From the NCBI GenBank assembly GCA_900323505.1, contig OOIN01000005.1, positions 310,001 through 374,000 on the forward strand: DNA of 64,000 nucleotides, given 5' to 3'. Source of the DNA: Ustilago trichophora. Taxonomy: Eukaryota; Basidiomycota; Ustilaginomycetes; Ustilaginales; Ustilaginaceae. Each line of letters starts with the position of its first letter. The first letter of the stretch is position 1. The position numbers and the translations under genes are program-made. Of this stretch, positions 53,611 to 57,272 are shown piece after piece. Below the pieces are notes generated by a model that saw nothing but the letters and a program-made list of their open reading frames with translations, ran no database searches and was not told where the DNA came from.

Positions 53611-56600
53611 ATGAAGATCCTCTTCATCTGCACAGCCTTTAACTCCCTCGCACAGGTACGTTTTCCGACCCTTGACCCTGGTCCCTGAGGATCCACTCCC
53701 TTGTTCCCACCACCAATTGTTTGCGCGCCGTCCTCCGCCCAGATCGGTGACCCATCCCCTTATCATTACCCACCAGTGGCCCTCCTGGTGGACAATGGTG
53801 GGCTGGAACTTGGCCCGCGAGCAAGTGGTAACCAGAGTGGAGTTACATCGACTTCATATATGCTGACACAATGGCTTTGAAAACTTTACATCCCACACAG
53901 CGCACTGCACTTGTGCTCCGTGAGAAGGGACACTTGGTTACTGTCGAATATGCACTCTCACCTGCTCTGATGATTGAGGCGGCCGAGCTTGCGCAGCCCG
54001 ACCTCATCATCTGTCCCTTCCTCACCAAGCACGTCCCACCCAAGATCTACAACACGTGGATGACGCTCATCGTCCACCCTGGCCCACCAGGAGACGCCGG
54101 TCCGTCGGCCATCGATTGGTGTTTGATCGGTGACATGGGCGAGTTGCAGGATGCTGACCAGGAATTGACGCTCATTGACGCCAAGCACAGCGCAAAGAAT
54201 GCAAGATCCACCATGCGCAGCCATTGGGGTGTCACTGTGCTCCAGGCGATCGAAGCCTTCGATGCTGGTCCCGTGTGGGCCTTCGACCAGTTTGAGCTGG
54301 GTCCCGACAACGCTTCCATGTCCAAGAGCGACCTCTATCGCGGTCCCGTCACCCGTGCAGCAGTCAATGCTGTACTGGCCGCCGTCGAACGCATCACATT
54401 CTGCGCCGAACAGGAGGCAAAGCAGTCTGGCGCCGAGTCCTACTTGCCTGTCAGCGCATCCGTTGTGGCTCCATCCCACTTTCGATACCAGTGCATCTCT
54501 CGTGGTGTTCCCTTCTTGGGTGGCAGGACGCACGATCGCCCCCTTCTGCGCGCTTCGCAGCGTGACTTTTACCCGCTTCTCCCTCAGAGCAGCGGAAGCA
54601 ACTTCAAGCTCCGTCTGTCGGCCGATGCTATCCTCCAGCGCATCCGCTGTGCCGACTCGCAGCCCGGTATGCTTTCCACTCTCTTTGGCACTCCTCTCTT
54701 CCTCTACAATGCACACATTCAGCGAGACCCTCTCCCACCTGCCGTTGCTGACAGGCACGCGGCTCTCAACCAGGCTGGAACCGTGCTGGCGACCCGCGAA
54801 GGTGCTGTGCTTGTCGATGTCGGAGCTGACTTCCCAATCTGGATTGGTCACCTTCGTCGTCCCAAGGCCAAGGCTGACAAGTACCTTCACCCAAAGCTGC
54901 CAGCTGTGATGGCACTGCTCTCGATGCCCGAGACCGCACGAAGTCTCGGCATGTTCGATGCCAACAAGGTTCCCGAGTGGAGCGCTACCACTGGATTTGG
55001 TAGTGACCCAGCCCAGCCATGGCAGCGACGACCCGGTACCTACCAGCAGGTCTGGATTGATGTTGAGTCGAGTCCCAAGACTAACTCTGCTGTGGCCTAC
55101 GTCCACGCTGACTTTTACAACGGCGCCTTTTCGACTACACAGTGCGAAATCCTGCTCGAGGCGATCAAGTGGGCGCTCGAGGTGCCCAACCTCAAAGCTG
55201 TTGTGATGCTTGGTGGTCCAGGGTATTTCTCCAACGGCATTGCGCTCAACGTGATTGAAGGTTCGCCCGATCCTTCTGCTGAGGGATGGGCCAACATCAA
55301 CGCCATCGACGATTGCGTTCAGGCTCTGCTCGCACCCAAGGGTATTGTCACATTTGCAGCCATGCGCGGTAATGCAGCTGCTGGAGGACTCGCCATGGCC
55401 ACTGCTGCTGACTTTGTGATTTGTGCCGAGTCAGCCGTTCTCAACCCTCACTATCGCGGTCTGGGCCTGTTTGGCTCTGAATGGCACACATACTCTTGGT
55501 ACGAGCGCTGCGGATCGCACGTCGCTGCCAAATTTGCGCGCGAGATGCTGCCTATCAGCTCTCACGAGGCCAAGAAGATCGGCCTGGTCGACCACGTTCT
55601 CGACAACGATGGCCTCACCGCCGATGAGCTCCTCTCATCGATCAAGCAGCTCGTAAACCAGGTCATGGACGCCGATGTGCAACCATCAGGTGCTACCACA
55701 TCCGGCATTGTCTCTTCCGGCGCTCCTTGGACCCGCTCCCTCCGACCAGTCTCGGCAGATGCTTCCAAGTCGACCTTGTTGTCGGAGCAGATCCTGCGCA
55801 ACAAGACTCGCTACCTGGCCTACCTCTTTGCCGAGAACGCAGACAGCAACTTGTCGCTCGAGCAACACTTCCTGCGCTACCGAAAGCACGAGTTGGACCA
55901 GATGACGCTCGACTTTTTCCACCCGCACCGCAATCAGCGTTTTGCTAGCCGATGCACTGGGTTTGTCAGGAAGCTGGTGCCCAGCTCGACGCCAATGCGA
56001 TTTGCACTGCATCGCAGATATTCTGGTGTTGAATGGTCAACTGCCGAAGACTCTTTGGTTTCCTCAAAGCACCTAGACGAGGAGGAGGAGGATGGATTCG
56101 ACGGACTTGCCGAGTACCCCGTTTCTGCTGCTGTCGCTCGTCTTCCCATCGTTCGTCCCGAATTTGTCGTCCATGAGACCACGAAAGGAGCCGTCGAATC
56201 GCGAAAGAACCGCGCCTACAGCGTGGGTCAAGACACTCTCGCCTCGGCCCGGTCTGGCGATGGAGACGCCAACACTCAGCACGGAGAAGGCAGCCAGCGA
56301 AGCTCCACATCCACCGCTCCAACCACTCCACGCGAGTTGAGCCCCAAGGCAGTCCTCTCGCTCGGCGACGAGGAAGCTCAGCGGGTCGAGATCGAAGCAG
56401 AGCAGCTTAAAGTGCATCGCGTTGCTCCAGCCGCTGGCCTCCTGGGTAACGGAGCTGCTATCAAGCGCGGACCCACAGTCATCTCCTTTGTCGCGAATGA
56501 AAAAGCGCAACCCATTGTCAAGGTTCGCACGGAACGCTCTGCTCCCACCAACGTCAGTGTTGATAGCACCAAATCCACCGTGGTCTCGCCAGTAAAAGCG

Positions 56601-57272
56601 AAGGAGAGCACCGACTACGGCAAAAAGTCGCAGAGCAAGATTCAGCGCTTCTTCCAGTCATTAGGTCGCAAGAGTCGGGCCAACCTTCTCGCCGAGTCTG
56701 AACCCACCACTCCCGTCGTCCCTGCCCCCATCAAGACCTCTGAACAGCTCGCACCCGCCTTTACCAAGCCCACTGAGGTAACTCCTTCCGCTTCCCCGGC
56801 TCGCAATGCCAGCACGGATGCAGCGACACGTCAACGTCGTCGATCCTCGATCTCGGACGTCTTTTCGATCCTTCAACAGCGTTCGCCCACACAACACTCT
56901 AGCATGGATTCGGCCAGCAAAACGGAGCGCCGTCGATCTTGGCGACCCACTTCTTCTTCGGGATTGTCGTTGAGCAGCTCGCACGACCGCCACGCCACTG
57001 TTGGGGAGTCGAACAAGTCTCTGCCCCCCACACCTAACGCCAAATCCCAGAGCACTTTCCAGCTCAACGTGACTGCTACTCCCAAAATCGTTGAAGAGAC
57101 TTTTGCAAATGCAGTCTACGAAAAGCACGACGATGGAGCGGATACACCTCCTCGAGAGGGGAGGAAGGGCGAGGGAGATTGCCTATGGAGCTGCTACTAC
57201 TCTGAGGATGGCGTTGTGAGGCAGCAGCACCAGCAGGCGAGGTCACAGCCAAAGGCCGTCTCCGCCATTTAA
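53611..57272 (+). CDS. hypX: HypX-like protein: formyltransferase-like plus enoyl-CoA hydratase-like domains with a fungal tail
   Basis: Two exons, 53611-53655 and 53901-57272 (GTACGT donor, GCTGACA branch-like site, CACAG acceptor), encode 1138 residues. Splicing gives MKILFICTAFNSLAQRTALV, matching HypX openings. The N-terminal half has HPGPPGDAGPSAIDW (74-88) and GVTVLQAIEAFDAGPVWA with Asp136, the formyl-THF hydrolysing module. The C-terminal half has the crotonase oxyanion pieces MLGGPGYFSNGIALN (451-465) and GNAAAGGLAMA (505-515), then NPHYRGLGLFGSEWHTY, retaining Tyr533 and Glu542. Bacterial HypX makes CO from formyl-THF via formyl-CoA for [NiFe]-hydrogenase assembly. Residues from about 690 on are Ser-rich and absent from bacterial HypX. 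No hydrogenase or hyp gene is nearby, so the function here is unknown. Confidence 0.85.

Follow-up and report, generated by a model that had tools for sequence, protein, structure and literature searches.

Gene structure and sequence of the smut HypX

The window, a 64,000-nucleotide stretch of the Ustilago trichophora genome, contains at positions 53611 to 57272 one two-exon gene that encodes, under the splice model adopted, a protein of 1,138 amino acids. The first-pass annotation had recognized here the two-part order of HypX, a formyltransferase-like half followed by a crotonase-like half, and this identification was confirmed, with Aquifex HypX as the best solved match. The gene has the following features.

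53611..53655, + strand: exon 1, residues 1 to 15, where the formyltransferase half begins (splice model; N-terminus the same in P0001)
53656..53900, + strand: intron, GT-AG (GTACGT...CACAG), with a branch-point-like CTGAC (splice model)
53901..57272, + strand: exon 2 including the stop codon, residues 16 to 1138 (splice model)
54075..54095, + strand: HPGPPGD, with His74 and Asp80 of the formyl-transfer triad (alignment; residues named in PMC6802093)
54261..54263, + strand: Asp136 (Aquifex Asp109), formyl-transfer base (alignment)
54615..54872, + strand: Formyl_trans_C domain, residues about 254 to 339 (Pfam PF02911, E 6.7e-5)
55119..55670, + strand: crotonase (ECH_1) domain, residues about 422 to 605 (Pfam PF00378, E 8.5e-21)
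55452..55481, + strand: Tyr533 to Glu542, candidate decarbonylation pair (Aquifex Tyr416 and Glu426; alignment)
56022..57269, + strand: Ser/Ala-rich tail of 416 residues, with no counterpart in the bacterial proteins examined
57192..57200, + strand: CYY motif near the C-terminus, residues 1113 to 1115 (motif count over the listed proteins)

Six alternative splice choices also keep the frame open, and the one chosen yields the HypX N-terminus. The predicted start is identical to that of U. trichophora UTRI_01701_B (P0001), a protein of 1,138 amino acids that is 92% identical to the window protein. The genome that includes the window (38.8 Mb, 45 contigs) carries a second HypX copy on contig C8, 92% identical to the window copy on contig C5; its exon 1 is the same and is followed by GTATGT, and P0001 matches its exon 2 letter for letter. 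The transporter gene downstream of HypX has a counterpart at the matching place on C8, with 96% identity. Given the diverged HypX copies and the matching transporter, the assembly appears to contain two diverged chromosome sets. Pairwise counts between the two HypX copies gave a dS of 0.41 and a dN/dS of 0.047 for the 707 codons of the core and a dN/dS of 0.198 for the 416 codons of the tail. The pair is under purifying selection, and the value for the core rules out a degenerate relic. A chance fusion or misassembly is ruled out by the presence of the two-half protein in many fungal genera, and the diverged C8 copy, with an identical exon 1 and a matching transporter downstream, also speaks against it.

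Five distinct Aquifex HypX sequences lead the PDB sequence search (E 9e-80 to 2e-75) and single crotonases come after them, at E about 1e-5 or weaker, so the best matches are not separate formyltransferase (FMT) and crotonase (ECH) proteins. The phmmer alignment with Aquifex HypX comprises three in-register segments that run from residue 16 to about residue 599 and cover both halves, with the formyltransferase-then-crotonase order of HypX/HoxX along the chain; a fourth, C-terminal segment (residues 672 to 722) is also in register and is not significant alone (3.3 bits). The Pfam scan of the window protein returned only ECH_1 and Formyl_trans_C, the N-terminal formyltransferase model giving no match, and the 25 NCBIfam matches shown (of 42) were all under the cut-off.

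The catalytic residues of Aquifex HypX are H74, D80, D109, Y416, and E426 (PMC6802093). They correspond to H74, D80, D136, Y533, and E542 of the window protein, and the numbering that the first-pass annotation gave for Asp136, Tyr533, and Glu542 is therefore correct. Conservation was assessed in an alignment of 120 fungal-type proteins (the best 120 of 473, every named organism being a fungus) and 87 bacterial rows. Residues H74, D80, and D136 are invariant in all 119 fungal-type rows that cover them, fragment P0029 being without this stretch, and Y533 and E542 are invariant in all 120; each of the five is invariant in the 87 bacterial rows. Five of the six coenzyme A (CoA) contacts (Q15, R131, S194, Q195, N306, and R542) are kept, and R542 is replaced by Lys, as in Cupriavidus; the contacts were mapped through L014, an Aquificaceae relative whose numbering lies within one of that in PMC6802093, rather than through A. 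aeolicus itself. Two contacts are changed in the Nocardia row used (N306 to G and R542 to N) and one in the Peribacillus row (Q195 to N). The window protein thus has the domain order and catalytic residues of Aquifex aeolicus HypX (PDB 6J0P) and Cupriavidus necator pHG1 HypX/HoxX, together with most of the CoA contacts and the C-terminal core segment. It differs from them in an extra loop of about 30 residues ahead of the Asp136 motif and in a long tail with the CYY motif, and neither the [NiFe] large subunit nor HypD is matched in the smut genome. As judged from its sequence, the window protein is a HypX with near certainty.

Past the core, the fungal-type proteins have a variable tail, and that of the window protein may, to judge from its composition, be disordered. 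A CYY motif lies near the tail end in 153 of 174 listed fungal-type proteins (from two listings, the best 120 of 473 and the best 120 of 1321), compared with a mean of 0.17 after the last 130 residues were shuffled, and in none of 87 bacterial HypX proteins. The motif is found 58 to 460 residues past the core and 2 to 37 residues before the end. Six of 10 Tremellomycete proteins examined have WPCLV at the corresponding end. Our guess is that the CYY end docks a partner or folds back on the core.

Distribution and phylogeny of fungal HypX

HypX is not peculiar to one smut, as the first-pass annotation might have suggested, and the family spans the Ascomycota and Basidiomycota. The relatives in the two listings (again the best 120 of 473 and of 1321) come from smuts, rusts, Tilletia, Rhizoctonia, Ceratobasidium, Kwoniella, Cutaneotrichosporon, and many Pezizomycotina. 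Some of these proteins carry the database name hydrogenase maturation factor hoxX. In a full-text literature search covering few subscription journals, no paper with fungal HypX as its subject was found by title or looked-up passage. A rice-blast paper has hoxX in its reference list only, the hypX of a Penicillium paper is a gene of a tyrosine cluster, and a paper on Aspergillus urease names other Hyp factors.

Two trees, of 83 and 92 rows, were made by a quick method. The 15 fungal rows group together as a single clade (SH-aLRT, 100) with a stem length of about 0.9, and no bacterial sister to this clade was found in either tree. The bacterial rows are the 80 nearest loci (best 80 of 580) and 7 plasmid rows, with 19 near-duplicates, judged by name, omitted; two of these were restored in the 92-row tree, in which L139 to L141 retained an untrimmed N-terminal extension. 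The bacterial transfer proposed in the first-pass annotation is possible, but it would be old, with the fungal clade on a long stem and without a bacterial sister among the rows used. Recent transfer or contamination is ruled out by the fungal clade, the intron, and the separation of Ascomycota and Basidiomycota in the tree. P0030, labeled EukProt, was rejected as a sign of a wider eukaryotic range, because it groups with rusts.

Search for hydrogenase and formyl-THF genes in the smut

In the 38.8-Mb smut genome, neither the [NiFe] large subunit (PF00374) nor HypD (PF01924) was matched; the same searches matched 5 and 4 of 14 control genomes, respectively. The remark in the first-pass annotation that [NiFe] hydrogenase and hyp genes are not seen here thus holds genome-wide for these two proteins. 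Because neither is matched, the smut protein is a HypX by protein family and is not a hydrogenase maturation factor here.

The same genome contains two copies of PurU above the curated cut-off. PurU acts on 10-formyl-tetrahydrofolate (10-formyl-THF) with a His/Asp site. Neither PurU, a formyl-THF deformylase, nor the hydrolase domain of FDH has a crotonase half, and their products differ from those of HypX. The substrate 10-formyl-THF and the His/Asp site are shared with HypX by both PurU and the FDH hydrolase domain (for the latter, see PMC6802093). With PurU already present, a further enzyme that simply hydrolyzes formyl-THF would be superfluous; this and the invariance of the Tyr/Glu pair proposed for decarbonylation weaken the hydrolase role offered in the first-pass annotation. 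Its other option, CO or formyl-CoA made for another purpose, may still hold.

Genomic neighborhoods of bacterial HypX

A scan of bacterial and archaeal genomes gave 580 HypX relatives, of which the best 80 were taken as loci. Hyp or hydrogenase genes accompany HypX at 47 of these loci and a gene of the MHYT gas-sensor family does so at 12, while none has both and 21 have neither. This exclusion has a Fisher p of 6e-6, the 80 loci being related to one another and between 3.6 and 17.8 kb in length. A hyp/hydrogenase call required at least one BLAST match, with E below 1e-5, to Cupriavidus and Kitasatospora proteins, and only L021 was called on a single reference. MHYT calls were made with a profile from the MHYT proteins of the same loci (E below 1e-30); weak matches to it (E 1e-3 to 6e-6), in frames overlapping HypX in L009, L046, L050, L051, L061, and L077, were left uncounted. 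Bacterial HypX thus splits by neighborhood, one part lying with hydrogenase or hyp genes and another with MHYT. Of 49 genomes searched for PF00374, 43 match, some weakly, and 6 do not. In two Nocardia genomes (G014 and G039), the weak match shares a contig with HypD at a distance of about 10 kb and could represent a genuine, divergent hydrogenase subunit.

The arrangement and the output domains of the MHYT partners vary. MHYT lies downstream of HypX on the opposite strand in Kitasatospora and Streptomyces and upstream of it in Actinocrispum. In Peribacillus (L035), an MHYT-PAS-GGDEF-EAL gene begins about 60 bp downstream of HypX, and in a Methylococcaceae metagenome-assembled genome (L017) an MHYT-PAS-histidine kinase-receivers gene follows a response-regulator-like gene; by Pfam, the Nocardia partner at L023 has no output domain. 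The distribution of MHYT over the HypX tree requires 8 changes, 7 of which strong branch support makes unavoidable, with gain and loss indistinguishable. Within the Peribacillus family, HypX was found in 1 of 43 genomes, namely the query's own.

The linkage was followed further in the genus of Nocardia flavorosea, where HypX was found in 61 of the 118 genomes, as 62 genes in 63 rows. MHYT is adjacent to HypX in 36 of the 50 loci read, downstream on the same strand in 34 and upstream on the opposite strand in 2; at the other 14 it is not in the stretch seen, and 30 of the 50 loci extend at most about 1.5 kb past HypX. No hyp or hydrogenase gene was found at any of the 50. These loci are related and not independent, and four of them (L023, L026, L051, and L055) are also counted among the 80 loci. 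The other 12 genes all fall within a distant group of 15 (38 to 42% identity); of the 3 members of this group that were read, 2 have MHYT. At an assumed density of three or four MHYT genes in 8 Mb, about 0.2% of genes would have an MHYT neighbor within 2 kb by chance. MHYT matches occur somewhere in all 61 Nocardia genomes with HypX. A plasmid copy (L143) is without MHYT, and its downstream neighbor has no Pfam match. HypD is present in 42 of the 61 genomes. It is absent from 17 of the 36 MHYT-linked genomes compared with 2 of the 14 others (p 0.05, counted by hand), and because the remaining 19 of the 36 have it, HypX may have a hydrogenase role in those 19.

HypX occurs in 15 of the 38 genomes of the L017 family (titled Methylococcaceae), as 20 genes in 21 rows, one gene being split in two. 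None of these 21 loci, which are 3.5 to 4.8 kb long, has hyp genes. Formate-THF ligase (FTHFS) lies downstream of HypX on the same strand in L159, L163, and L164, and FolD lies directly upstream in L162, so that 4 of the 20 genes have FTHFS or FolD beside them; MHYT is found at two loci of the family, L146 (the same as L017) and L147. With FTHFS or FolD and MHYT as neighbors in different bacteria, both sides of the HypX reaction are marked, the supply of formyl-THF by the former and a CO-responsive sensor type by the latter.

Other neighbors include an acyl-CoA dehydrogenase gene at 6.5 kb in Acaryochloris, 2.4 kb in Mycetohabitans, and 0.3 kb in Shewanella (L013), and regulators of the GlxA type (DJ-1/PfpI plus AraC helix-turn-helix by Pfam) near L152, L156, L065, and L082. 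The bacterial HypX genes without hyp neighbors, in Nocardia, Peribacillus, Acaryochloris, Mycetohabitans, and methanotrophs, resemble those of fungi in that hydrogenase and hyp genes are absent from the stretch seen. Unlike the fungal genes, they often stand beside MHYT, FTHFS/FolD, or GlxA-type regulator genes, and their products are without the CYY tail and are not sister to the fungal clade.

MHYT proteins in bacteria and fungi

The MHYT domain of CoxC from Afipia carboxidovorans senses CO through copper (PMC11347149). CoxC is an MHYT-LytTR regulator that shares its MHYT domain with the HypX neighbors and regulates the cox genes for aerobic CO oxidation (PMC11347149). That paper mentions neither HypX nor hydrogenase. 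A full-text literature search found no paper containing both MHYT and HypX, and MHYT is mentioned in none of the 19 papers with three or more of five related terms.

A six-frame search of the smut genome found one MHYT gene, on contig C12, so MHYT is not adjacent to either HypX copy (C5 and C8). Its product is 100% identical to U. trichophora UTRI_02367 (1,055 amino acids), which matches PF03707 in two stretches (E 1.9e-17) with the motifs MHFI, MHYS, and MHYI; no further Pfam domain was found in the 701 amino acids scanned. Smuts, rusts, and Tremellomycetes have relatives of this protein, and ascomycetes have more distant ones (120 matches among 8,000 candidates). An MHYT protein of Aspergillus fumigatus has been listed (PMC3576715), and an MHYT kinase of Taphrina has been described (PMC4007546). 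By the names among the listed matches, at least 22 basidiomycete species, including U. trichophora, have both HypX and MHYT; Puccinia graminis, Tilletia indica, and Kwoniella heveanensis are among them. Exobasidium, Jaminaea, and Cryptococcus gattii have MHYT and are not among the HypX matches listed (best 120 of 473 or 1321), and Rhizoctonia has HypX and is not among the 120 MHYT matches listed. These one-protein species mean little, because the HypX listings hold the best 120 and the MHYT candidates were limited.

Possible functions of HypX without hydrogenase

Formyl-CoA is the intermediate of HypX (PMC12134894). Fungal HypX likely forms formyl-CoA, and it probably goes on to form CO, although with less assurance. 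The gene would then encode a true HypX that works without hydrogenase as a formyl-THF decarbonylase. Its CO would not be built into a [NiFe] site and could instead serve as a messenger of folate one-carbon status, which a copper-binding MHYT membrane protein would read. We tentatively favor this reading, in which a formyl-THF decarbonylase acts independently of hydrogenase and MHYT proteins are the probable sensors of its CO; its chance falls somewhat short of even. For bacteria, CO as the signal and MHYT as its receptor would be the most economical account of the neighborhoods, and its chance is close to even. Extending the CO pairing of HypX and MHYT to fungi is reasonable but weakly supported, and we regard it as doubtful. 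Equally doubtful is the full proposal that the two proteins are a writer and a reader of CO, in which HypX would turn 10-formyl-THF into CO for a copper membrane sensor, the parts standing side by side in bacteria and both being kept in fungi.

HypX might instead drain surplus 10-formyl-THF and free THF, with CO or formate as the leaving group and no signaling involved. The FTHFS and FolD genes beside HypX in the L017 family agree with such a valve, as do the invariant formyl-THF triad and the 33 of 80 loci (best 80 of 580) with no hyp or hydrogenase gene in the stretch. However, the smut already has its two PurU copies for this purpose, and a valve does not predict the recurrent linkage to MHYT, so that this alternative, too, appears unlikely.

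The linkage to MHYT might also be regulatory for O2 or NO, in which case the pair would say nothing about CO. MHYT has been proposed to sense O2, CO, or NO, an MHYT protein mediates NO-induced dispersion, and O2 competes with CO on CoxC (PMC11347149), while HypX is used under oxic conditions (PMC12134894). Nevertheless, a CO-forming enzyme beside a domain type with a demonstrated CO response is the simplest match, and the scanned Nocardia partner (L023) has no other Pfam domain for regulation. We regard this O2 or NO alternative as quite improbable.

Slightly less probable still is that the enzyme halts at formyl-CoA and supplies it to acyl or oxalate metabolism. The versatility of crotonase folds counts for this, together with the acyl-CoA dehydrogenase genes near HypX in Acaryochloris, Mycetohabitans, and Shewanella. 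Formyl-CoA is indeed on the path of the HypX reaction, but it is reported to stay bound to the enzyme (PMC12134894), and the Tyr and Glu proposed for decarbonylation are invariant in the 207 sequences compared. Finally, it is very unlikely that CO is a ligand for an undescribed fungal metal centre, in parallel to [NiFe] assembly: the known role of HypX (PMC6802093, PMC12134894) and, as a guess, a Cys-containing tail end that could dock a partner agree with it, but there is no candidate metalloprotein, and the smut genome has no match to HypD, which belongs to the known acceptor scaffold.

To our knowledge, and by the literature cited, HypX serves in hydrogenase maturation. A conserved fungal branch in which no hydrogenase was found, together with bacterial branches tied to a CO-responsive sensor type and to folate genes, points to a second use of enzymatic CO. 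If the reading of HypX as a decarbonylase whose CO is sensed is true, it would provide a heme-independent route to endogenous CO and an enzyme-receptor pair open to direct test, and the label of hydrogenase maturation factor on the fungal proteins would be misleading. Should HypX and MHYT indeed write and read the signal as a pair, CO would be a dedicated folate-derived messenger in hydrogenase-free organisms.

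Neighbors of bacterial HypX genes

Genes encoding MHYT domains, which are gas-sensor membrane domains, adjoin HypX at 12 bacterial loci where hydrogenase neighbors are absent, including those of Nocardia (L023), Peribacillus (L035), and a Methylococcaceae metagenome-assembled genome (MAG) (L017), as well as L015, L026, L044, L046, L047, L050, L051, L055, and L061. The output domains of these HypX-linked MHYT proteins differed in each of the three that were scanned (L017, L023, and L035). In the Methylococcaceae, the family of L017, a gene for formate-tetrahydrofolate ligase (L159, L163, and L164) or FolD (L162) adjoins HypX at four loci, and some members carry two or three HypX copies per genome. 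A GlxA-type regulator gene (DJ-1/PfpI plus AraC) lies near methanotroph HypX at eight loci, as assigned by Pfam for L065, L082, L152, and L156 and by eye for L057, L153, L157, and L163.

HypX is plasmid-borne in Mycetohabitans (L004, megaplasmid) and Acaryochloris (L003), and the annotated stretch around each of these two genes contains no hyp genes. A cluster of an acyl carrier protein (ACP) and an amino acid-ACP ligase is located near the Mycetohabitans HypX.

C-terminal regions and duplicate copies of HypX

A short motif near the C-terminus of the window HypX, beyond the variable tail, is conserved and common to other fungal HypX proteins:

57192-57200, forward strand, CYY motif (residues 1113 to 1115)

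The C-termini of 6 of 10 Tremellomycete HypX proteins contain WPCLV. The HypX frame of a Chloroflexi MAG (L042) has 888 amino acids, including an additional C-terminal part of approximately 300 amino acids.

In the smut genome holding the window, contigs C5 and C8, and likewise C1 and C2, share genes at similar coordinates. Only one MHYT gene was found in this genome. The HypX copies on C5 and C8 differ with a dS of about 0.4, which, together with the contig pairing, resembles a hybrid or a strongly diverged dikaryon.
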